A DNA stretch of 64,000 bases. It comes from an uncultured Acidobacteriota bacterium. Lineage in GTDB: Bacteria > Acidobacteriota > Terriglobia > Terriglobales > Acidobacteriaceae. Where the stretch lies: positions 186,001 to 250,000 of the forward strand of contig CAILAC010000010.1 of NCBI GenBank assembly GCA_903832055.1. Reading direction: 5' to 3'. Made by a program: the position numbers and the translations under genes. The notes beneath the pieces are model-generated. The model had not been told where the DNA came from. It did no database searches and was given only the letters and a program-made list of their open reading frames with translations. Positions 10,599 through 46,787 of this stretch are shown here, piece after piece (position 1 is the stretch's first letter; each line of letters opens with the position of its first letter).

Positions 10599-10677
10599 TT
10601 GTCATCCTGAGCAAAGCAAAGGATCTGCTGTTGTCCTTGCCATTTTTGTTGTCATTCCCCCAGGGAATCTGCTGTTG
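10599..10677. repeat. Dispersed GTCATTCCC...GGGAATCTGCTGTTG repeat, two copies
   Basis: Copy one (10599-10634) is divergent (GTCATCCTGAGCAAAGCAAA then GGATCTGCTGTTG). Copy two (10648-10677) reads GTTGTCATTCCCCCAGGGAA then TCTGCTGTTG. The same element occurs at 24929-24965 (inside mazG), 31051-31130 and 32759-32797. Confidence 0.75.
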
Positions 10678-10706
10678 CATTTGCTTCTCACACTTCACAC
10701 TTGCTT

Positions 10707-29049: not shown

Positions 29050-31032
29050 ATGGGCTATCAGGTACTCGCACGCAAATATCGTCCGCAGCGCTTCTCCGAC
29101 GTCTACGGGCAAGACCACGTCACCCGCACCCTCACCAACGCCCTCACCCAAAACCGCATCGCTCACGGCTACATCTTCTCCGGCCACCGCGGCATCGGCA
29201 AAACCACCATCGCCCGCATCCTCGCCATGGCCCTCGACTGCCGCACCGAAGTTGGAAGTGACAAACGCCCAACAGTCGAGCCCTGCCTCCAATGCGTCTC
29301 CTGCCGCGAAATCTCCTCCGGCGGCGGCTCCGGCGAAGCCACTCACTCCTTCGACTTCATCGAAATCGACGCCGCCTCCAACCGCGGCATTGACGACGTC
29401 CGCTCCATCATCAGCCAGGCTGAAGTCCGCCCCGCCCGCGACAAGTACAAAATCTTCCTCCTCGACGAAGCTCACCAGATCACCGACGCAGCCTTCAACG
29501 CCATCCTCAAGACCCTCGAAGAGCCACCCGACTGGGTCATCTTCATGATGGCCACCACTGAGCCCGAGTCCATCCCCCAGACCATCCGCTCCCGCTGCCA
29601 GCACTTCAGCTTCCACGCCGTCAAGTTTGAAGACATCCTCGCCCAGCTCAAGGCCATCGCCCTCGCCGAGGGCGTCACCGCCGACGAAGCAGCCCTCGCA
29701 CTCCTCGCCGAGGCCGGCGACGGCTCCATGCGCGACGCCCTCTCCATCATGGATCAGGCCATCGCCTCCGCCCCCTTCGAAGATGGCAAGGCCGTTCTTC
29801 AGAACGACCAGATCCGCGACCTCATGGGCAGCGTTCCCAACACTGTCTTTGAACGCCTCATGGAGCACGTCAGCGCCCAGTCTTCCGCCGCGCTCATGGA
29901 GGATCTCGACCGCCTCATCACCTCCGGCAACAGCCCCAGCGCGCTCGCCCGCCAGCTCGTCCGCTACCTCCGCAACTGCCTCATGGCCAAGCTCGGCGGC
30001 GAACACACCCAGCTCCTCGCCATCGCCAACGACGAGCGCAGCCGTGCCGACCGCACCGCTCTCCTCTTCACCGAAGACGAGCTCACCCGCAACCTCCAGC
30101 TCGCCCTCCGCACCTTCGACGAACTCAACTACCGTCAGGAACAGCGCTTCCACCTCGAACTCGGCCTCCTCAAGCTCATCCAGGCCCAGCGCCTCCTGCC
30201 CATGGAAGAGATTCTCAGTGGCCTCGCCGGCAATCCCGGTACTCTCGCAAACGCCCCCCGCCGCCCCGCGCCAGCCACGTCTCCTGCGCCCAGGCCTGCT
30301 CCCGCGCCCACTCGCCCGGCTGCGCCCGCAGCTCCATCGCTCTCCCCCTTCGCCGCCAGCAACCAGCGCACCATCGAATCCGCGGCTCCCTCTTCCATCC
30401 GGGTAGGTCCGGGCTTCAGCACTGACACAAAGGCCCAGGCCTTCTCCGGAACTTCGTCCCCTGCGGCCGCAGCTCCCTCAGCCTCCTCCACCGCCGTCGG
30501 ACTCCTCGAAATCGATGAGGTTCCCAATGAAACCCTTGGCGCACCCATCGAATCCATCTCACCCATTGCACCCATTGCACCCATCGAATCCGCCAGCCCC
30601 GCTGTATCCGCCCCTCAAATCGTCCCCTCCCTCGCCGCCTCATCCGCACCCAGCACCGACCACATCCGCCAGGCCGTCACGGAATCTCTCGCTGCCAACG
30701 CACACTCCACCGCCGCCACCCTCCTCGCAGACGCCCGCTGGCTCCTCGAACCCTCCAGCGTCCGCATCGAGGTCAACGCCAAACCCACCATGATTCGCCT
30801 CACCTTCAACGCCGCCGCCGAAAAACTCATCCGCGCCGCCATCACCCAGGCCGGAGCACCCAGCCGCTTCCTCATCGTCCCCGGCGAGGGCCTCACCTCC
30901 TCCGGCAGCGCAGCCAAACCAAGCGCGCCCCAGGGCAGCATCGAGGCCGAAGCCCGCGCCAACTCCCTCGTCCTCCACGCCCAGTCCCTCTTCAACGCCG
31001 AGATCGTCTCCGTAGTCGACCTCCGCACCTGA
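29050..31032 (+). CDS. dnaX: DNA polymerase III subunits gamma/tau
   Basis: 660 residues. The clamp-loader ATPase begins Y-Q-V-L-A-R-K-Y-R-P-Q-R-F-S-D-V-Y-G-Q with Walker A G-H-R-G-I-G-K-T-T near residue 45, a four-Cys zinc module (C...C-L-Q-C-V-S-C), Walker B L-L-D-E-A-H and sensor 1 A-T-T-E-P. Domain III is followed by a Pro/Ala/Ser-rich linker from about residue 400, which includes short P-I-A-P-I repeats, and a C-terminal domain. It loads the sliding clamp. It opens the usual dnaX-ybaB-recR cluster, but here recR is displaced. Confidence 0.95.
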   Translation: MGYQVLARKYRPQRFSDVYGQDHVTRTLTNALTQNRIAHGYIFSGHRGIGKTTIARILAMALDCRTEVGSDKRPTVEPCLQCVSCREISSGGGSGEATHSFDFIEIDAASNRGIDDVRSIISQAEVRPARDKYKIFLLDEAHQITDAAFNAILKTLEEPPDWVIFMMATTEPESIPQTIRSRCQHFSFHAVKFEDILAQLKAIALAEGVTADEAALALLAEAGDGSMRDALSIMDQAIASAPFEDGKAVLQNDQIRDLMGSVPNTVFERLMEHVSAQSSAALMEDLDRLITSGNSPSALARQLVRYLRNCLMAKLGGEHTQLLAIANDERSRADRTALLFTEDELTRNLQLALRTFDELNYRQEQRFHLELGLLKLIQAQRLLPMEEILSGLAGNPGTLANAPRRPAPATSPAPRPAPAPTRPAAPAAPSLSPFAASNQRTIESAAPSSIRVGPGFSTDTKAQAFSGTSSPAAAAPSASSTAVGLLEIDEVPNETLGAPIESISPIAPIAPIESASPAVSAPQIVPSLAASSAPSTDHIRQAVTESLAANAHSTAATLLADARWLLEPSSVRIEVNAKPTMIRLTFNAAAEKLIRAAITQAGAPSRFLIVPGEGLTSSGSAAKPSAPQGSIEAEARANSLVLHAQSLFNAEIVSVVDLRT

Positions 31033-31050: not shown

Positions 31051-31130
31051 TTTTTGGTTTTCATTCCCAATGGGAATCCGCTGTTGTATTCGCTTTTCTT
31101 GCTGTCATTCCCAAAGGGAATCTGCTGTTG
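31051..31130. repeat. Dispersed GTCATTCCC...GGGAATCTGCTGTTG repeat, two copies
   Basis: Copies at 31051-31086 (TCATTCCCAATGGGAATCCG then CTGTTG) and 31104-31130 (TCATTCCCAAAGGGAATCTG then CTGTTG), in tandem between dnaX and ybaB. Confidence 0.8.
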
Positions 31131-31178: not shown

Positions 31179-31505
31179 ATGTTCAATCCACTCAAAATGC
31201 AGGAAATGCTCTCCAAAGCCAGCCAGATGCAAGAGGAAGTCCAGCGCCGCCTCGCCAGCACCATCCTCGAGGGCTCCAGCGGCGGCGGCGCCGTCACCGC
31301 CACCATCAACGGCAAAAAACAACTCCTCAAGGTCCGCATCGACCCCGCCGCCGTCACCACCCTCGGCAGCAACAAAGCCGACCTCGAAATGCTCGAAGAC
31401 CTCATCGTCGCCGCCGTCAACGACGCAGGCCGCAAAGCCGAAGAAGCCCTCCAGGGCCAGCTCAAAGGCCTCCTCGGCGGCCTCAACCTGCCCGACCTCA
31501 GCTGA
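31179..31505 (+). CDS. ybaB: YbaB/EbfC nucleoid-associated protein
   Basis: 108 residues. The start at 31179 gives the standard M-F-N-P-L-K-M-Q-E-M-L family opening; the longer open frame upstream runs through repeats. L-E-G-S-S-G-G-G-A-V-T-A-T-I-N-G is the conserved beta turn and L-E-D-L-I-V-A-A-V-N-D-A the helix. It binds DNA as a dimer. Position after dnaX is conserved in bacteria. Confidence 0.95.
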   Translation: MFNPLKMQEMLSKASQMQEEVQRRLASTILEGSSGGGAVTATINGKKQLLKVRIDPAAVTTLGSNKADLEMLEDLIVAAVNDAGRKAEEALQGQLKGLLGGLNLPDLS

Positions 31506-31570: not shown

Positions 31571-32515
31571 ATGCCCGCCAACACCCTCAATCGCCGCCAC
31601 TTCCTCCGCCTCGGCGCAGTCGCCAGCGCCGCCGCCCTCGTCCCCCACTGGCTCACCGCTCAGGCCGCCGACATGGTCGCCCAGTCCCGCGCCACCGCCG
31701 CCAAAACTCCCATCACCACCACCAAGCTCTACGACAACCTCTTCCTGCTCCAGGGAGTCGGCGGCAACATGGCCCTCCAGACCGGCCCTGATGGCAAAAT
31801 TCTCATCGACTCCAGCTACTCCACCGCCGTCCCCGGCATCCTCGACGCCATCAAAAAGGCTGGCGAAGGCCCCGCATACACCCTCATCAACACCCACTGG
31901 CACTTTGACCACACCGACGGCAATGAAGCCATCCACGCCGCCGGCTATCGCATCCTGGCCCACGAAAACACCCGCGCCCGCCTCTCCTCCCCGCAAACCA
32001 TCAAGGCCTTCGGCCTCTCCCTTCCCGCCGCCCCCGCCGGAGCACTCCCTACCGCCACCTTCGGCTCCAGCTTTCACATCTGGAAAAACGGCGACTCCCT
32101 CGACCTCGTCCACTTCGACCCGGCCCACACTGACTCCGACATCTACATCCACTTCCACAAGGCAGATGTCCTACACGTCGGCGACACCTGGTTCAACGGC
32201 TTTTATCCCTTCATCGATGAAAGCTCGGGCGGCTCCATCGGCGGCATGATCGCAGCCAACGTCACCGCGCTCAACATCGCCAGCGACACCACCAAGATCA
32301 TTCCCGGCCACGGCCCCGTCGGCTCCAAGGCAGACCTGCAGCGCTTCCACGACGTCCTCTCCGCCATCCGCGACAAAGTCGCCGCCCTCAAGGCTCAGGG
32401 ACTCACCGAAAAGGAAGCCGCCGCCAAAAAGCCCACCGCCGAATTCGACTCCGTCTGGGGCCACGGCATCCTCACCCCCGACCAATTCGTCGGCATCGTC
32501 TACCGCACCATCTGA
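31571..32515 (+). CDS. TAT-exported metallo-beta-lactamase-fold hydrolase
   Basis: 314 residues. A twin-arginine signal (N-R-R-H-F-L-R-L-G-A) is followed by an MBL-fold domain. The zinc motif is T-H-W-H-F-D-H-T-D-G near residue 100; later ligands are His in V-L-H-V-G-D-T-W and His in I-P-G-H-G-P-V. It resembles secreted MBL enzymes of the quinoprotein-relay or lactonase-like groups rather than class B beta-lactamases; the substrate is unknown. It sits in the cluster where recR would follow ybaB. Confidence 0.85.
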   Translation: MPANTLNRRHFLRLGAVASAAALVPHWLTAQAADMVAQSRATAAKTPITTTKLYDNLFLLQGVGGNMALQTGPDGKILIDSSYSTAVPGILDAIKKAGEGPAYTLINTHWHFDHTDGNEAIHAAGYRILAHENTRARLSSPQTIKAFGLSLPAAPAGALPTATFGSSFHIWKNGDSLDLVHFDPAHTDSDIYIHFHKADVLHVGDTWFNGFYPFIDESSGGSIGGMIAANVTALNIASDTTKIIPGHGPVGSKADLQRFHDVLSAIRDKVAALKAQGLTEKEAAAKKPTAEFDSVWGHGILTPDQFVGIVYRTI

Positions 32516-32610
32516 GAAAACAGGGATATGGAAAAGGGGAACACAGAAACCGTCGCTTTTCGGCTATTCACTGTTCCCTTTTCCCTGTTCCCTGGCTCCA
32601 AAGGAGCCCC

Positions 32611-32736
32611 ATGTCCCGCTACGCTGAACCCATGGCCCGCCTCATCGAAGAGCTCAAAAAACTCCCCGGCGTCGGCACCAAATCCGCCGACGAATTCACC
32701 ATGTCCCGAGCCCTAAATAACCGCCGCGAACTCTAA
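32611..32736 (+). pseudogene. recR deletion scar (first 26 and last 16 codons joined in frame)
   Basis: A 41-codon frame begins with an AAGGAG ribosome site and reads M-S-R-Y-A-E-P-M-A-R-L-I-E-E-L-K-K-L-P-G, then V-G-T-K-S-A, then D-E-F-T-M-S-R-A-L-N-N-R-R-E-L. The first part matches RecR residues 1-26 (75 of 78 bases match the intact gene at 34995) and the rest matches its last 16 codons. The missing 158 codons (474 bp) would lie between two GCC codons, with a 4-base CGCC homology at the join. It still has a ribosome site and a stop, so a tiny peptide could be made. Confidence 0.88.
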
Positions 32737-32758
32737 CCAACCCGCGCCTCCGCTGCTG

Positions 32759-32797
32759 TTTTTTGGTTGTCATTCCCCCAAGGGAATCTGCTTCTGC
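32759..32797. repeat. Dispersed GTCATTCCC repeat
   Basis: TTTTTTGGTTGTCATTCCCC then CAAGGGAATCTGCTTCTG, one copy, between the recR scar and the GH35-like gene. The stretch 32798-32994 has no other supported feature. Confidence 0.8.
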
Positions 32798-32994
32798 TTT
32801 TCGCTTCGATTCAGCCCTGGACCTCTTCTCCAGCGGTCGTTGCCAGGCGGACACCCGGCTATTCCCTACTTCCCACCATGCCGGTGTCCCAAACTACCCA
32901 AACCTTGCCATCTCATCCACAAACTGGTACTTTTTCGAAGTTCCTCATTAACCACAAATTCCACCGTAGAAAAGCCTCGATCGGGAGCCATCGC

Positions 32995-34710
32995 ATGTCA
33001 AATCACAAGCTGTTGCTTGGGTGCATACTCGGCATCGCCTCCTGCATCGGTCCAGCCGTCATCGCTCAAACATCCTCAGCACAAACGCAAGCCAAAGCCT
33101 CCATCCCACACCTCGAAAAAAGAGGCCAGGCGACACAACTCATCGTCGCCGGAAAGCCCTGGCTCATGCTTTCCGGTGAACTGCACAACTCGAGTCCATC
33201 GAACGCCGAATACATGCGCCCCATCTGGAAGAAGCTCGCCGACATGAATCTCAATACCGTGATCGGCGCAGCCTCCTGGGAACTGATTGAACCCGAGGAG
33301 GGGCACTTCGATTTCTCCTCGGTAGACATGCAAATCACCGAAGCTCACAAACATGGCTTGAAACTGGTCCTCATCTGGTTCGGAATCTGGAAGAGCACCT
33401 CCGGCAGCTACGCCCCCATGTGGGTCAAAACCGACCCCGCGCGGTTCCCCATGGTCCAGACATCCTCAGGCCATCAGAAGATGCCCTTCGGCGTCTCCTT
33501 CGAGGGCATCAGCGTCTTTGGCAAGGACATCCTCGCCTCCGATGCCAAAGCATTTCGCGCCCTGATGCGCCATATTCGCGCTACGGACACAGACCACACA
33601 GTCCTCATCATGCAGGTCGAAAATGAAACGGGAATGTTCGGCGACAATCGCGACCGCTCCCCGCTCGCCGAGGAGGCGTGGTCCAAACCCGTTCCTCCTG
33701 AACTGCTGAGCTATCTGGCGGATCACAAGGCCAATTTGACCCCAGCACTCTCCAGAGCATGGGGAAGCCAGGGCTTCCAAACCAAGGGAACCTGGGCGGA
33801 TGTCTTCGGTAAGGACGCTACAGCCGGAGAAATCTTCATGGCATGGCATTTTGCAAGAGCCATCGAATTCCTCACCGAGACCGGCAAATCCGAACTGGCT
33901 CTGCCCATGTACACAAACGGATGGCTGGGACCAGTCGCCAATATGATAGAGCCAGGCCAGTATCCAAGCGGCGGTCCCGTCGCAGGCATGTTAGACATCT
34001 GGCGCGCCGCTGCTCCTAAAGTGGATATGCTCAGTCCAAACCTCTACTCACCCGATTTCCAGGGAATCTGCGCCCAATACGCGCGCCCCGACAATCCCCT
34101 CTTCATCCCCGAAACCTACGTGTCGGTTCCAAACCTCTTCTGGGCCATCGGCCACCATGCTGCACTGGGCTATTCGCCCTTCGGAATCGACAACATCTCC
34201 AGTGAAGCCCTCGGTTCCGCCTATAAGACCCTCGGCGCACTTGCACCGCTCATCCTCAGCCATCAGTCGGAAGGCGAAGTCATGGCAGTCCTCCAGGGTA
34301 ATGACGCCTCGGTAAAAGAATTCGAAGACGCAACAGGACTATCGCTGAAGTTCGGCGACGTTGCTTCTGTCATGGCCCCACCCAGCGCCAAAAAGCCCGC
34401 CGAGAAATCTGACGAGAAGAAAATCCCAGCCACTGATCAGGCTCCCGTCTTCGGTCAAACAGCGAAAGATGACCGCGGATTCGCAATCGTCATTCGTACC
34501 AAACCCAATCAATTCATAATCGCAGGCTCAGGAATCCTCATCCGCTCGTCAAAAGCCAAAATCGGCACCGTAGACGAAATCCTGATCGAACGGGGCCAAC
34601 CGATTCCAGGCCGCAGGCTCAACGGCGACGAAACATTCAGCGGAAACCTCTTCACACTCGACGTAGATCAACTCGCAGTGCGCAAAATAACAACCTATTC
34701 ACTCCAATAA
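32995..34710 (+). CDS. Secreted GH35-like beta-galactosidase (DUF5597-type)
   Basis: 571 residues from the ATG at 32995, which starts a signal peptide (S-N-H-K-L-L-L-G-C-I-L-G-I-A-S-C). The (beta/alpha)8 barrel opens with G-K-P-W-L-M-L-S-G-E-L-H-N-S-S. The likely acid/base is E211 in Q-V-E-N-E-T-G and the nucleophile E373 in I-P-E-T-Y-V. A beta C-terminal domain of the DUF5597 kind follows (V-I-R-T-K-P-N-Q-F-I-I-A-G-S-G). It should remove terminal beta-galactose-like residues from plant or microbial glycans. It lies between the recR scar and the response-regulator scar. Confidence 0.85.
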   Translation: MSNHKLLLGCILGIASCIGPAVIAQTSSAQTQAKASIPHLEKRGQATQLIVAGKPWLMLSGELHNSSPSNAEYMRPIWKKLADMNLNTVIGAASWELIEPEEGHFDFSSVDMQITEAHKHGLKLVLIWFGIWKSTSGSYAPMWVKTDPARFPMVQTSSGHQKMPFGVSFEGISVFGKDILASDAKAFRALMRHIRATDTDHTVLIMQVENETGMFGDNRDRSPLAEEAWSKPVPPELLSYLADHKANLTPALSRAWGSQGFQTKGTWADVFGKDATAGEIFMAWHFARAIEFLTETGKSELALPMYTNGWLGPVANMIEPGQYPSGGPVAGMLDIWRAAAPKVDMLSPNLYSPDFQGICAQYARPDNPLFIPETYVSVPNLFWAIGHHAALGYSPFGIDNISSEALGSAYKTLGALAPLILSHQSEGEVMAVLQGNDASVKEFEDATGLSLKFGDVASVMAPPSAKKPAEKSDEKKIPATDQAPVFGQTAKDDRGFAIVIRTKPNQFIIAGSGILIRSSKAKIGTVDEILIERGQPIPGRRLNGDETFSGNLFTLDVDQLAVRKITTYSLQ

Positions 34711-34734
34711 TCCAATTAGAATCCGGGTGCCGGG

Positions 34735-34808
34735 TTCCCTGCTCCCTGGCTTCTCAGCTTCGCCAGCAAATCCGCCGTAGCCGCCAGCCCCGAGAACGGC
34801 AAATTCGT
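34735..34808 (-). pseudogene. Response-regulator deletion scar (3' end)
   Basis: On the minus strand this reads L-P-F-S-G-L-A-A-T-A-D-L-L-A-K-L-R-S. The intact receiver gene at 37114-37485 has F-S-G-Q-A-A-T-S-D-L-L and, 23 codons later, G-D-L-L-A-K-L-R-G, so the segment between the two DLL copies (69 bp) is missing. CTCAGCTTCGCCAGCAAATC is identical in both. Flanking TTCCCTGCTCCCT is also shared. The rest of the receiver is absent, and the frame runs on past the lost stop. Confidence 0.75.
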
Positions 34809-34994
34809 CGTAGATGATGTGCGATTGTTCGAAGATAACTCTTCGGATAGCCGCTCCAGGCTGTTGTCCGACTCATTTGCTGGGTGCGATGGGCCACGCT
34901 GGGTCGGAATCGGTAGCGACAAACAATAAACTGATCGCGTTCAAGATCTGGCGAACCGTATATTAACCTCTTTCCCCTCCTATACTCTAGAACC

Positions 34995-35594
34995 ATGAAC
35001 CGCTACGCCGAACCCATGGCCCGCCTCATCGAAGAGCTCAAAAAACTCCCCGGCGTCGGCACCAAATCCGCCCAGCGCTTCGCCTTCCATATCCTGCGCT
35101 CGTCAGACGAAGACGCCGCCGCCCTCGCCGACGCCGTCCGCGCTCTCAAGGCCAGCCTCCGCCTCTGCTCCATCTGCAACAACGTCACCGACATCGACCC
35201 CTGCGCCTACTGCACTAGCCCAGTCCGCAACAACCGACAGGTCTGCGTCGTCGAAGAACCCACCAGCATCGCCACCATCGAGCGCACCCGCGGCTACTCC
35301 GGCGTCTACCACGTCCTCCACGGCACCCTCTCCCCCCTCCACGGAGTAGGACCCGACCAGCTCCGCTCCCTCACCCTCCTCGCCCGCGTCGAGCGCAACG
35401 AAGTCGACGAAGTGATCCTCGCCACCAGCCCCACCCTCGAGGGCGAGGCCACTGCAAGCTGGCTCGCCACCGCCCTCCGTCAGCACAACGTAAAAATCAC
35501 CCGCATCGCCACCGGCGTCCCCGCTGGCAGCGACATCGAATACGCCGACGAAGTCACCATGTCCCGAGCCCTCGAAAACCGCAGAGACGTCTGA
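34995..35594 (+). CDS. recR: Recombination mediator RecR
   Basis: 199 residues, full length. The N-terminal helix-hairpin-helix has L-P-G-V-G-T-K-S-A-Q-R, the zinc finger is C-S-I-C...C-A-Y-C (residues 57-75), the Toprim core is V-C-V-V-E-E-P-T-S-I, and a C-terminal Walker B-like strand follows. RecR with RecO or RecF loads RecA at gaps. It lies 3.5 kb after ybaB rather than next to it; a scar of a second copy occupies the usual place (32611-32736). Confidence 0.97.
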   Translation: MNRYAEPMARLIEELKKLPGVGTKSAQRFAFHILRSSDEDAAALADAVRALKASLRLCSICNNVTDIDPCAYCTSPVRNNRQVCVVEEPTSIATIERTRGYSGVYHVLHGTLSPLHGVGPDQLRSLTLLARVERNEVDEVILATSPTLEGEATASWLATALRQHNVKITRIATGVPAGSDIEYADEVTMSRALENRRDV

Positions 35595-35795
35595 ATCGGA
35601 AAAATCTCAAGTCCCAGCCCGGCTTCAACCATATTTCTGCTACTGCTTTCACGGTCTCTTCATTTACACTGGGTCAAGCAAATCACAGCCAGGTATTTCT
35701 ATGTGCTGACCGGCATCCAAAAGCCGCGATCGCAATGGAAATTCGGTTTCGCTGGCCGTCTGCCTTGCCACTCTTGAATCCGGGGACCTATCAAT

Positions 35796-36566
35796 TTGCC
35801 TTTGCGCCTCCCGATCTCGAAGCCTTCGTCTTCCTTCACGCGCGGCATCGTGATCGCAGCCCTCGTGGCCTTGACTGGCGTAGTCGCCCCCGCAGCCCAG
35901 GCTCGCAAGCCGCTTGCCCACGGGCACTCCCGCCTTCACATACTCGCGCACGCCCTCCTCGACGTGGCTCTGCCCGACGTCGGAATCGTCCCTACTGCAG
36001 ATGATGCGCTGCCTGAAGAAGGCGAAAAATACGAAATTAAGCTCATGCACAGCCATACCGGCGATATGGTCAGCGTCGTCTATCGCATCGGCGACACCTA
36101 CGTGCCCGAAGCGCTCGACCAGCTCAATCAGTTCCTGCGTGACTCCCACAACGAAGAAGTCAATCAGTACGACCCGCGTACCTTCGATGTACTGCATACC
36201 ATGCTCGCCAAGCTCGGCAAGCCTGACGCCCCCATCGATGTCCTGTCAGGTTACCGCTCGCAGGAAACTAACGACGAACTACGCGCCAGCGGAACCACAA
36301 ACGCCGCTGAACACTCCCAGCACATCGTCGCCAAAGCCGTTGATCTCCGCGTTCCCGGTGTCCCCGCCCCCCTGCTGAGAGACGCAGCTCTCTCGCTCAA
36401 CGCCGGCGGAGTCGGCTACTACCCCAAAAGCCAGTTTGTGCATGTCGATGTAGGCCCGGTCAGAAAGTGGACCTATTCAGCCTCCCATGCCCACCGGCAC
36501 GCCCATCGCGCCCATCACTCCCAACGCAGCACTCGGTCCCACTCCCGGCACGCGCACAAGGCATAA
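35796..36566 (+). CDS. Exported DUF882/M15-like peptidoglycan peptidase
   Basis: 256 residues. A signal peptide (helix about residues 15-35, A-Q-A) precedes a DUF882 (YcbK-like) domain with an M15 metallopeptidase fold. Zinc ligands are in E-H-S-Q-H-I-V-A-K-A-V-D-L-R and F-V-H-V-D-V-G-P-V-R-K-W. L-S-G-Y-R-S-Q-E-T-N is also conserved. It probably trims cell wall cross-links in the periplasm. The last 35 residues are His/Ser/Arg-rich (H-A-H-R-H-A-H-R-A-H-H), unusual for the family. Confidence 0.85.
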   Translation: MPLRLPISKPSSSFTRGIVIAALVALTGVVAPAAQARKPLAHGHSRLHILAHALLDVALPDVGIVPTADDALPEEGEKYEIKLMHSHTGDMVSVVYRIGDTYVPEALDQLNQFLRDSHNEEVNQYDPRTFDVLHTMLAKLGKPDAPIDVLSGYRSQETNDELRASGTTNAAEHSQHIVAKAVDLRVPGVPAPLLRDAALSLNAGGVGYYPKSQFVHVDVGPVRKWTYSASHAHRHAHRAHHSQRSTRSHSRHAHKA

Positions 36567-36609: not shown

Positions 36610-36978
36610 CTAAGGAATATCCGTAATCAGGTCGCAATAACTGTACGAGTTATCCTGCAGGCCCGGTTCGGCTGCTGTGTGAATCAATCGGTAGAAGCTC
36701 TCAGGACTTCCTGGATTCTTCGGATCGTGAATATGCACGATCCGCTTCGCCATATCGCGTTCATTCCCCTTGTAGCAATAGTACTTAGTCCCGACATAGG
36801 TCCCCGAAAGCGGCTTCTTGTTCACGATCCCGTAGACTCCAAAACTAAGGTCATAGTTATACGCCTTGTCATGCAGATAGTCTGAGATTGGGTAACCGCT
36901 GGCGAGCGGCTGTTTATTTTTGAGAGCAAGTACAAGGGTTTGGTTGACTTGACCGATTTGGCTGAAACTGACTGGCAT
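36610..36978 (-). CDS. Hypothetical protein, no family recognised
   Basis: 122 residues from the ATG at 36978; an in-frame start at 37038 would add 20. The composition is normal coding: L-H-D-K-A-Y-N-Y-D-L-S-F-G-V-Y-G-I-V-N, Y-Y-C-Y-K-G-N-E-R-D-M-A-K-R-I-V-H-I-H-D-P. There is no signal peptide, helix or motif that points to a role. Convergent with the M15-like gene. Confidence 0.6.
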   Translation of the reverse strand: MPVSFSQIGQVNQTLVLALKNKQPLASGYPISDYLHDKAYNYDLSFGVYGIVNKKPLSGTYVGTKYYCYKGNERDMAKRIVHIHDPKNPGSPESFYRLIHTAAEPGLQDNSYSYCDLITDIP

Positions 36979-37113
36979 TGGTCGCACCTCCATTGCGTTT
37001 GGGAAAACGGCCCGAATCATACCAAATCGCGCGAACACAATCCATTGCGCACAACGCCTCCACTACGGCACAGAAGGCCGCGCCTCGATTCCCTGCTCCC
37101 TCGTCCCCAGTCC

Positions 37114-37485
37114 CTAGCCCCTCAGCTTCGCCAGCAAATCCCCCGGGTGCACCGGCTTCGCGAGAATCTCAAATTCATACCCCCGCTCCCGAGCCTTCTC
37201 CAGCAGATCCGAAGTAGCCGCCTGCCCTGAAAACAGCAGAATCTTGATCGAAGGCAATATCTCCCGGATCTTGATCGCCGCGTCTATCCCGTTCAGCCCG
37301 GCCATGATCACATCCGAAATCAGCATCTCCGGCGCAAACGTCCCCGCCAGTTCAAGCGCCTTCTCGCCCGTATAGGCGACCCGCGCTTCAAAGCCGCTCT
37401 GATTGAGAATCATTGCCAACGTATCTGCAATTACACGTTCGTCATCGGCAACCAGGACCCTTGGTTTCCTTGCATTCTCCGGCAT
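37114..37485 (-). CDS. Single-domain response regulator (receiver only)
   Basis: 123 residues, one CheY-like receiver. Acidic pair D14-D15 (V-A-D-D-E), phosphoacceptor D58 (I-S-D-V-I-M), Ser in F-S-G and Lys in A-K-P are all in place. There is no output domain and no kinase next to it. A partial, deleted copy of its 3' end lies at 34735-34808. Confidence 0.93.
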   Translation of the reverse strand: MPENARKPRVLVADDERVIADTLAMILNQSGFEARVAYTGEKALELAGTFAPEMLISDVIMAGLNGIDAAIKIREILPSIKILLFSGQAATSDLLEKARERGYEFEILAKPVHPGDLLAKLRG

Positions 37486-41031: not shown

Positions 41032-41054
41032 CCATCCGTTGCGGGTGCCCCCGT

Positions 41055-41158
41055 GGGTGCCCCCGGTCCCTGGCATGGGGAACGGGGATCACATAAATCC
41101 CCACCCCTGACACCAGAAGCGGTCAAAACACCAGAACGGGTGCCCCCGGTCCCTGGCA
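41055..41158. repeat. REP-like copies upstream of the second transposase
   Basis: GGGTGCCCCCGGTCCCTGGC (followed by A) occurs at 41055-41075 and 41138-41158 in the same orientation, each with GGGGA(C/A)CGGGGAT nearby. An inverted copy GGGACCGGGGGCACCC lies at 41763-41778. Confidence 0.85.
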
Positions 41159-41211
41159 CCTGGGGACCGGGGATACACTATCTCCATCAAATCTCCCTGC
41201 CGGAGCACCGC

Positions 41212-41790
41212 ATGAAAGGCCAACGTCTCCGCCTCCAACAAACCGGAGACTTCCACTTCCTCACCTTCAGCTGCTATCGACGCCTCCCCTATATGGCATC
41301 CGTTGAAGCCAGGGACTTATTCGAAGACGCCCTGGAGCGCGTGCGCACCCGCTATCTCTTCGCGGTAAGCGGCTATGTCGTCATGCCAGAACATGTACAT
41401 CTGCTGGTCAACGAACCCATGCGCGGCCTGCTGTCACGCACCGTTCAAGCTCTGAAACTTTCAGTCTCCATGCGCAGCCAGCAAAGACCCTTCTGGCAAG
41501 CGCACTATTACGATTTCAACGTCACTTCCCACGCAAAATTCGTGGAGAAACTGCGCTACATCCATCGCAATCCCGTCCGACGAGGACTCGTGGTGAAACC
41601 GGAAGAGTGGAAATGGTCAAGCTTTTGCCATTACCAGAGTGGCGTCCGTGGAACCGTCGAAGTCGAGTCGGATTGGACAGCAGCACAACGAGGCTGGCAA
41701 TTGCCCCGGTGGATGCAGAGTCGACCACCCGCCTCCCCGACCTCCCCGGTCCCCAAATGCGAGGGACCGGGGGCACCCTCCAAGGAGTGA
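41212..41790 (+). CDS. REP-associated tyrosine transposase (IS200-like), second type
   Basis: 192 residues from the ATG at 41212; the open frame upstream is REP DNA. F-H-F-L-T-F-S-C-Y-R-R is the first strand, M-P-E-H-V-H-L-L-V holds the HUH motif (near residue 65), and L-R-Y-I-H-R-N-P-V-R-R-G-L-V has the nucleophile Tyr and its helix. It belongs to a different subgroup from the transposase at 7200. Its last codons (P-K-C-E-G-P-G-A-P) are encoded by the downstream inverted REP itself. Confidence 0.9.
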   Translation: MKGQRLRLQQTGDFHFLTFSCYRRLPYMASVEARDLFEDALERVRTRYLFAVSGYVVMPEHVHLLVNEPMRGLLSRTVQALKLSVSMRSQQRPFWQAHYYDFNVTSHAKFVEKLRYIHRNPVRRGLVVKPEEWKWSSFCHYQSGVRGTVEVESDWTAAQRGWQLPRWMQSRPPASPTSPVPKCEGPGAPSKE

Positions 41791-44459: not shown

Positions 44460-46787
44460 CTATTGAAGCACCACGTCGTCGTAGAGCGTATACGACGGAT
44501 CGCCTGCGTAGTTGTCGTCATGGCTCGTCAGCGTCAGCGTATAGCTCGAACCCGCCGTAACTGCCGCAGTCAGATTCACCCACGTAGCGTTTGTCGCGCA
44601 GGTCTTGGGCAGCAGTGTTGCCGTTGTGTTCGCCGTGTTGTTCTTCAGCGTCACAGTAGCCCAGTCGTAGGTCACCGTATCCGGGCAGGTCATCTTGTAC
44701 CAGAAGCTTACCGTGGTTTTACCCGTCGGCACGCTAAAGGTCTGCGTAAAGGTGCTGTCGCCGTTGGTTGCCGTTGTCAGGCCGTCCTTCGCGCATCCTA
44801 CTCCGGTGTGGCATCCAGTGGTAGCAATCGTTTCCGAAGCGCCCGCAAGAGTCCAGCCGGTCGTTCCGCTCTCGAACCCACCATTGGTTACGCCAGTTCC
44901 ACCACCACCGCCGCCACCAGTCGTAATCGTCACGTCATCGTACAGCGTGTAGGAGGGGTCGCCTGCATAGTTGTCGTCATGGCTGGTCAGAGTCAAAGTA
45001 TAGCTGTGACCTGCTGTAAGTGGGCTGGTTACGTTGATCCACGAGGCAGACGTAGCGCAAGTCTTCGCCAGCGGGGTCGCCGTCGTGCCTGCGGTATTGT
45101 CCTTGAGGGTAGCAGTCGCCCAGTCGTAGGTGACCGTATCCGGGCAGGTCATCTTGTACCAGAACGAGACCGCCGTGGCTCCAGTGGGCGCCGTAAAGGT
45201 CTGTGAGATTGAGCTATCGCCGTTGGTCGGGCCCGTAGACCCCATCTGACTCGAGTAGGCCCCGGTATGCGCGGTCGTTGAAACCGTTTCGATCGCACCC
45301 GCTGTCGTCCAGGGGCTCAGGTTTCCGGTCTCAAATCCGCCGTTGGTAAGCGTGCCGCCACCGCCACCACCGCCGGCGGCCGTAACCGTCAGCGCCACCG
45401 TGGCAGAGTGAACCTTCGTGCCTTCAGTACCGGTCACAATAATCGAATAGCTGCCCGCTGCCACCGTCGACGCCACAGAGATGTTCACTGAGGTCCCGGA
45501 ACCAGCCGCCACTGAGGCCGAAGCTAACGTCGCCGTCACTCCTGCCGGCGCTCCAGAGAGCGCAAGCGTAACCGTTCCTGCCGCCGTCACCTGGGTCGTA
45601 GACACGTTGCTTGAGCCGGATGCGCCTGCAGCAATACTCGTTGCCGACGCGCTGATGGTGAAATCAGGCGTTGTTCCGCCCGAAGCGCCGGTATAGCTGA
45701 TGCAGTTATTCTGGGCATTCGAGAACTCAAGCTGGATCGTATACGTCTGCCCGTCCGACCCGACAAACGTGCCCTGCTGGGCGTTGCAGATATCGCCAAT
45801 TTCGCCGTTCGTGGCGTCGTACCACGCCAGCGGGGGGGCGTTCACTGTGGCAATGCCCACGTCAGCGTCCGTGATGGCTTCCGTCAACTCGTGACTTGTC
45901 ACCGACGTCATGTTGCCAAATACAGACCCCGAGTTGCCGCAGCCCGTGTCGCATCCGCTGCCCGCCTGCATATCCGGCATTACGCCGTACAAGAAGCCTG
46001 CGTTGTGAGCCGTGTTGGACGAGGTGCCGTGATACGCGCAGAAGCCACCCGCCTGGCAGCTGTTTGAACCGCCCTGCGAGATCGTCTTCCCGTGAGGGAA
46101 ATACGTCATGTAGATCGTATTCACGTTACCGCCAGCATCGTATGTCGGTGCCGGAAGATGACCAGCCGTGATCTGAGCCTGCAGTTCGCTCTGGATCTGG
46201 GCGTCTGTAATCGTTGCGCCGTTGTTAGCCGCACTCGGCGCAATGGTGTAAATACCCAAAACTGAGCCGTGTGAGATCGCCTGATTACTCGTCGTCCCGC
46301 TCAGCCCGTTGGTATGGTATTCCGTATTGAGGAAATCCACGAGCCCGCCGGTGACGGCTTGGGTAAGGAAGCTGGACATACTCGGGGCAGTCGTCGATGC
46401 GATGTGAGAGTCATACGACCCGCTACCATAGACCACGATTACAATCTGTACAGCCGAAATGACAGGCCCACCATAGTAAGTAAGGTGCGCGCCGGCAGGT
46501 GCTGACAAAGGTGACGGACGACCCGCCTTGTCCTGTCCATGCTTCGGAACGAGTGGGACAATCCTCAAGTTCGATGCAGTCCCCGTTGCGATTCCCTGCA
46601 GAGGCCCGCGGCCATGCTGCGCCTCAACCTGCGATTGAAGCTCATCCGCAGCCTGCGCCTGCGCCTGTACTACGCCAAAGCTGAGCATCGCCACGCCGGC
46701 AACGCCTAAAGCGGTCGCCCGCTTGAGTTGACACAAAAAGCTGCTGCTATCGCCACACTGGCGAACGCCGAAACGAGGGTACTTCAT
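44460..46787 (-). CDS. Large secreted EXORDIUM/Phi-1-like protein with two C-terminal beta domains
   Basis: 775 residues from the ATG at 46787, 5 bases after GGAGG. A signal peptide precedes an N-terminal domain with T-S-H-E-L-T-E-A-I-T-D, A-W-Y-D-A and E-I-G-D-I-C, a pattern of plant phosphate-induced/EXORDIUM proteins and related bacterial secreted proteins. The H-E-L-x-E might also bind zinc. Next comes an Ig-like or Big-type domain, then two near-identical copies of a carbohydrate-binding-like domain, each ending D-D-N-Y-A-G-D-P-S-Y-T-L-Y-D-D, split by Gly runs. The role is probably extracellular adhesion or polymer binding. Confidence 0.65.
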   Translation of the reverse strand: MKYPRFGVRQCGDSSSFLCQLKRATALGVAGVAMLSFGVVQAQAQAADELQSQVEAQHGRGPLQGIATGTASNLRIVPLVPKHGQDKAGRPSPLSAPAGAHLTYYGGPVISAVQIVIVVYGSGSYDSHIASTTAPSMSSFLTQAVTGGLVDFLNTEYHTNGLSGTTSNQAISHGSVLGIYTIAPSAANNGATITDAQIQSELQAQITAGHLPAPTYDAGGNVNTIYMTYFPHGKTISQGGSNSCQAGGFCAYHGTSSNTAHNAGFLYGVMPDMQAGSGCDTGCGNSGSVFGNMTSVTSHELTEAITDADVGIATVNAPPLAWYDATNGEIGDICNAQQGTFVGSDGQTYTIQLEFSNAQNNCISYTGASGGTTPDFTISASATSIAAGASGSSNVSTTQVTAAGTVTLALSGAPAGVTATLASASVAAGSGTSVNISVASTVAAGSYSIIVTGTEGTKVHSATVALTVTAAGGGGGGGTLTNGGFETGNLSPWTTAGAIETVSTTAHTGAYSSQMGSTGPTNGDSSISQTFTAPTGATAVSFWYKMTCPDTVTYDWATATLKDNTAGTTATPLAKTCATSASWINVTSPLTAGHSYTLTLTSHDDNYAGDPSYTLYDDVTITTGGGGGGGTGVTNGGFESGTTGWTLAGASETIATTGCHTGVGCAKDGLTTATNGDSTFTQTFSVPTGKTTVSFWYKMTCPDTVTYDWATVTLKNNTANTTATLLPKTCATNATWVNLTAAVTAGSSYTLTLTSHDDNYAGDPSYTLYDDVVLQ

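Follow-up and report, generated by a model that had tools for sequence, protein, structure and literature searches.

Organization of the locus

In the window, by which we mean the whole stretch of 64,000 nucleotides of soil-bacterium DNA analysed, the genes dnaX and ybaB are followed by a gene encoding a protein of the metallo-beta-lactamase (MBL) fold and then by a 41-codon open frame made of the two ends of recR, referred to here as the scar, or the stub when its product is meant (Table 1). The position of the MBL gene, between ybaB and the recR sequence, is found in many relatives; the initial annotation did not name this gene. An intact recR lies about 2.4 kb beyond the scar; between the two are a gene resembling GH42/DUF5597 proteins and a remnant of a response-regulator gene. 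Both the scar and the intact recR are thus present, as the initial annotation of this DNA had stated.

Table 1. Features of the recR locus, with coordinates given as positions in the window
Feature	Position	Strand	Remarks
dnaX	29050..31032	+	Colinear with G002; most named relatives have DnaX upstream of recR
ybaB/ebfC	31179..31505	+	Pfam YbaB_DNA_bd, 89 bits
MBL-fold gene with TAT signal	31571..32515	+	Lactamase_B 38.8 bits, TAT_signal 23.8 bits; immediately precedes recR in G002
Leader A (leader of the scar)	32516..32610	+	Carries AAAGGAG; final 30 nt match the G002 recR leader at 28
recR scar	32611..32736	+	In-frame remnant of 41 codons, joined at CGCC (32685-32688)
GH42/DUF5597-like gene, between the two relics	32995..34710	+	DUF5597 53.0 bits, Glyco_hydro_42 30.5 bits
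Response-regulator relic	34736..34806	-	3' end without its stop; 69 bp deleted between GGATTTGCTGG repeats
Unmatched DNA upstream of intact recR	34807..34964		No match in 15 genus genomes
Leader B (leader of intact recR)	34965..34994	+	Has TATACT; 22/30 nt as in A. dinghuensis recR
Intact recR	34995..35594	+	199 aa; Pfam HhH, zinc finger, Toprim and RecR_C all above cut-off
M15-type peptidase (DUF882) gene	35796..36566	+	Peptidase_M15_2 150.4 bits; also in G002, G001
Hypothetical gene	36610..37038	-	No Pfam match; present in G002, G001
Intact response-regulator gene, full counterpart of the relic	37114..37485	-	Pfam Response_reg 66.7 bits

Several repeated elements were seen in the same window. 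An interspersed element of ~50 nt, built around the palindrome CATTCCC..AAGGGAATC, occurs at 31106-31122 and 32771-32788 (+) and at about 10623-10688; one copy is thereby located between dnaX and ybaB and one just past the scar. The element is found in many places in the genus, including arrays spaced about 62 nt in G008, and appears REP-like. A gene for an IS200-like Y1 transposase (41053-41790, +; Pfam Y1_Tnp 32.4-33.3 bits, cut-off 23) is associated with repeats at 41055-41089 and 41138-41174 and, in inverted orientation, at 41743-41778. We take this transposase to resemble REP-associated transposases, and it may partner REP elements. Finally, a direct repeat of 297 bp with 75% identity spans 44472-44768 and 44931-45227.

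Anatomy of the recR scar

The scar encodes MSRYAEPMARLIEELKKLPGVGTKSADEFTMSRALNNRREL (41 aa, 126 bp) and consists of recR codons 1-26 fused to the last codons of the gene across CGCC. Taking 474 nt out of the intact recR recreates the join, with a junction homology of 4 bp; among the deletions of 200 bp or more enumerated within the intact gene, 3.3% show homology of 4 bp or longer. When the scar is aligned with the intact recR, 75 of the 78 nt of its head are identical (3 differences), and its final 51 nt, counted through the stop codon, agree at 42 positions (9 differences). The head identity, the 474 missing base pairs and the CGCC join described initially are all reproduced by this alignment. 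The similarity exceeds chance at both ends, with E values of 1.7e-30 (head) and 1.0e-9 (tail). A search of the organism's whole genome with the stub returned only three matches, one at the stub's own position and one at each end of the intact recR.

The stub scores 31.2 bits against Pfam RecR_HhH, above the cut-off of 27, and falls slightly under the cut-offs for HHH (23.3 bits; 24) and RecR_C (20.7 bits; 22), while the same Pfam search gave no Toprim and no zinc finger match. Judged by the HhH, zinc finger, Toprim and C-terminal parts together, the stub does not qualify as a RecR protein, the HhH piece being the only one to pass its cut-off. The sequence AAAGGAG, which resembles a ribosome-binding site, is located at 32600-32606, 4 nt 5' of the scar's ATG. 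The scar has the features of a deletion pseudogene: similarity to the gene at both ends, an intact orthologue in place in relatives, and loss of the functional domains. In our opinion, the 41-codon frame is most likely a relic of this type, derived from the original operon recR and probably inert.

The scar occupies the ancestral site of recR

Colinearity between the window and G002, the closest relative identified, extends from dnaX across the MBL gene and the leader to recR, which is complete in G002. Since this intact recR stands at the exact place of the scar, behind the same MBL gene and leader, the scar occupies the ancestral site; the claim that an in-frame deletion lies in the normal dnaX-ybaB-recR position is borne out. 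Among 80 named recR loci, 68 have ybaB upstream of recR on the same strand within the sequence covered. The remaining 12 do not, some of them being cut by contig ends. In seven of the loci (L107, L108, L110, L112, L114, L117 and L118), at least 3.7 kb upstream of recR was examined and holds no ybaB; therefore recR stands elsewhere in these seven. The named recR loci gave one RecR match each.

It should be noted that recR and the M15 gene of G002 are on separate contigs with facing ends, so that their adjacency is an inferred one. The end of contig C86 (L034, after recR) and the start of C22 (L162, before M15) have similar, partly inverted termini of the CTAGAGCATCTCTC type, as read by eye, as if a mobile element were inserted between the two genes in G002. 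Two further genomes gave unusual results. The only recR found in G028 (L190, C259:14225-14699) consists of two overlapping pieces, covering residues 1-111 and 146-198, and appears to be broken or mis-sequenced. G017 yielded no RecR match, although its genome is given as 95% complete.

Is the stub a functional small protein?

The retained start codon, AAAGGAG, stop and reading frame, together with the RecR_HhH profile score above the cut-off, are what would be seen if the stub were translated as a miniature RecR. Such a protein, comprising the helix-hairpin and the C-terminal tail, would dock on full-length RecR or on DNA and would tune or poison RecFOR. Put differently, a helix-hairpin peptide of 41 residues would compete with helix 1 in the RecR N-N dimer, and the dnaX-ybaB operon would supply a natural RecR antagonist, RecR itself being made from a separate start region. 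A single-sequence structural model of the stub has two helices, with a mean pLDDT of 80.7 and a pTM of 0.46; the remaining four models reached 65.9-70.3.

Several observations speak against both versions. According to the available part of one structural account, RecO and RecF bind the Toprim domain of RecR, and the N-N dimer requires the entire HhH domain, with helix 1 packed against helix 3 (PMC3510498). The stub has neither Toprim, nor zinc finger, nor helix 3, which is at odds with the initial suggestion of a dominant partner of RecO/RecF; the other reading offered with it, that of a recent fossil, fits well. Residues of the tail are altered (Val to Phe, Glu to Asn). An open frame is expected by chance at the age of the stub: after 5 random substitutions, the 41-codon frame was still open in 86% of trials. 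No indication of selection on the stub was seen. A search of 398 family genomes with the stub gave more than one match in five, namely the organism's own genome (G000) and four others. In G133, G141 and G318 the second match is to a recR of full length, and in G421 to a gene cut by the start of its contig. Judging from second matches, no such stub exists in the remaining 397 family genomes; a second RecR piece in G049 was set aside as it lies at a contig end (18244-18348 of 18356 bases). For these reasons, we regard the translated miniature RecR as highly improbable, and the peptide competing with helix 1 just as much so.

A conserved small-protein gene was also considered and rejected. The initial annotation had named a conserved, separately evolving 41-codon gene in relatives as the finding that would speak against a scar; the same short frame was not found among the 398 family genomes, with the four other double matches checked.

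The intact recR has a different leader

The product of the intact recR is 96% identical to RecR of G002 and 83% identical to that of Acidicapsa dinghuensis, as which genome G001 is treated throughout. Leader A is absent before the intact recR, and the homology between the two copies starts at the start codon. Instead, the last 30 nt of leader B match those before the A. dinghuensis recR at 22 positions, the next best of the 108 recR leaders compared, which include some loci twice, matching at 14. Against 2426 ATG sites in the relatives' loci, leader B again reaches 22 only once, before the same A. dinghuensis recR, with 14 the next value. The pattern CCTATACNNTAGANNCATG, with at most one mismatch, has two matches in 15 genus genomes, both before recR; the reversed control has three. 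The TATACT of leader B, the one indication of this kind, suggests that this leader may act as the promoter of the intact recR. A consensus scan of 32300-35900 returned no sigma-70-like promoter, 1.1 being expected by chance.

On contig C9 of A. dinghuensis, the roughly 1.8 kb that follow ybaB up to the contig end contain no match to recR or MBL. The match of leader B in this species, together with a ybaB not followed by recR, indicates that a recR located away from ybaB, with such a start region, exists in the genus. The window holds both recR states side by side, one of them dead. Upstream of the intact gene, 34807-34992 is unmatched in the 15 genus genomes, and when 34712-34994 was searched in them, all matches fell within the regulator-relic part.

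The two leaders also bear on the possibility that one copy was produced by the assembly. The genome is a single draft of 18 contigs. The leader and tail of the scar are nevertheless unlike those of the intact copy, the scar's leader being homologous to that of G002, and the locus is interior to a contig of 1.06 Mb. An assembly duplicate or artefact was rejected on the difference in leader and tail, and we give it hardly any credence.

A second relic and the neighbouring genes

The response-regulator relic, situated between the GH42-like gene and the intact recR, reads LPFSGLAATADLLAKLRS in frame. It has undergone an in-frame deletion of 69 bp between 11-bp repeats (GGATTTGCTGG, both copies of which stand in G002), while the full regulator gene follows the intact recR. 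A convergent response-regulator gene, with an ABC ATPase beyond it, comes next after recR in G011, G004 and G006. In the window the order after the intact recR is M15, hypothetical gene, regulator, ABC; as far as the regulator it is the same in A. dinghuensis, and likewise in G002 on a separate contig.

The GH42-like gene has no full-length match at the corresponding place in the 15 genus genomes, and the region 32737-34994 has no long match elsewhere in them. Relatives of the protein in 150 family genomes reach 51% identity; those within the genus are encoded at sites other than recR. The gene looks like an addition to the locus.

The succession of stub, GH42-like gene, regulator relic, intact recR and intact regulator suggests that the segment once existed twice and that its first copy decayed. 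Both copies of recR and of the regulator would formerly have been complete. We thus consider it very probable that the locus once had two recR-regulator segments, and that the downstream, stand-alone copy came to replace the operon copy, which degraded into an inert relic. This history builds on the presence of two different leaders and of two relics, on a single intact copy downstream and on a scar at the ancestral position. One segment would have been the operon copy, with leader A behind dnaX-ybaB-MBL, and the other the stand-alone copy with leader B, which would now supply RecR. The redundant first segment would then have decayed through deletions between short repeats, 474 bp of recR being lost at CGCC and 69 bp of the regulator at the 11-bp repeat, and the GH42-like gene would have been added into the decayed segment. 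The initial account holds as regards a deletion at the normal place of recR; it was incomplete, having missed the different leader of the intact copy and the second relic.

Origin of the second copy

For the origin of the second copy, duplication and import both fit in part, with about equal chances. As in a tandem duplication, the upstream flank is kept by the first copy (leader A at the scar) and the downstream flank by the last (M15-hypothetical-regulator-ABC behind the intact copy), with a regulator fragment between them. The second copy, however, does not carry the first copy's upstream DNA. Because the homology begins at the start codon and 34807-34992 is unmatched in the genus, the arrangement is not the one that a simple tandem duplication predicts.

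An import would be a variant of the two-copy explanation that differs in origin only: a segment comprising leader B, recR, M15, the hypothetical gene and the regulator would have been linked by an illegitimate junction within the old regulator gene at its left end and by homology at its right, after which the native recR decayed. No leader A remains before the intact recR, leader B resembles the A. dinghuensis leader, and M15 and the hypothetical gene are located between recR and the regulator in A. dinghuensis too. In addition, codon 2 is Ser in the scar, whereas Asn is common to the intact copy and G002. On the other hand, the synonymous divergence (dS) of the intact recR from G002, 0.24, is inside the range spanned by six genes of the forward strand close by (0.13-0.35; dnaX, ybaB, MBL, M15, ABC and permease), which is a weak test; the RecR tree places the window next to G002 with support of 99/96, and RecR identity to A. 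dinghuensis is just 83%. Taken as a whole, an import is in our view a serious candidate, at somewhat less than an even chance. The leader-B copy would either predate the split from A. dinghuensis or have been exchanged with its lineage.

The divergence values are uneven. Of the 18 window frames compared with G002, the other forward frames have dS of 0.24-0.90 and the minus-strand frames 0.40-1.17, and in this weak test there is no sign of a recent outside donor of recR. All four trees pair the window with G002 as sisters (bootstrap 99-100). The placement of A. dinghuensis shifts: it is beside them in the DnaX+YbaB tree (77/87) and the four-gene tree (67/67), and outside in the RecR tree. In the ABC+permease tree, G011 and G004 are nearer to them (78/57).

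Individual residues give a mixed picture. Ser at codon 2 is shared by the scar with G011, G004, A. dinghuensis and G006; it is not universal, eight other genus genomes having Gln. The C-terminal RREL of the scar is shared by 8 of the 19 other rows, including four from the genus, and the intact copy ends in RRDV, as does G006. Analogously, the relic regulator has ATADLL, as do all 12 loci with a match (15 given), the organism's own full copy having ATSDLL. Both relics thus appear to retain residues of relatives that the intact copies have changed. At codons 6 and 17 and at the tail codon CGA, the scar and the intact copy agree and G002 differs. Because this conflicts with codon 2, a single history fits the residue pattern only if parallel change or gene conversion is admitted. 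Codons 6 and 17 would be explained by gene conversion that took place between the two copies and preceded the deletion.

Relation to known systems

We found no report of a recR relic in Acidobacteriota in the open literature searched. New here are the second relic, the likeness of leader B to that of A. dinghuensis, and the residues shared with relatives that both relics have kept. The locus presents a conserved repair gene caught in the course of leaving its operon, and two recR leaders within one genus. In other respects this is ordinary gene decay, but the relic is an instructive one, showing that an in-frame deletion can leave a neat small open reading frame that may be mistaken for a gene.

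With the recombination mediator RecR the stub shares codons 1-26 and the C-terminal residues; it differs from it in having no zinc finger, no Toprim and only a minor part of the HhH domain. The gene order is like that of the E. coli-type dnaX-ybaB-recR operon, as described in the available part of PMC9610160, up to the scar; unlike in that operon, an MBL-fold gene intervenes here and the functional recR is outside the operon position. The closest likeness in kind is to deletion pseudogenes that follow a transient two-copy state (bacterial merodiploidy). Merodiploidy arising through transformation has been described in another organism and not for recR (PMC3784515). In such relics, as here, a partial copy is found at the original site with an intact copy nearby, the deletion lies between short repeats, and a neighbouring gene is also cut to a fragment. 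The difference is that both deletions are in frame here, so that the remnant resembles a small gene.
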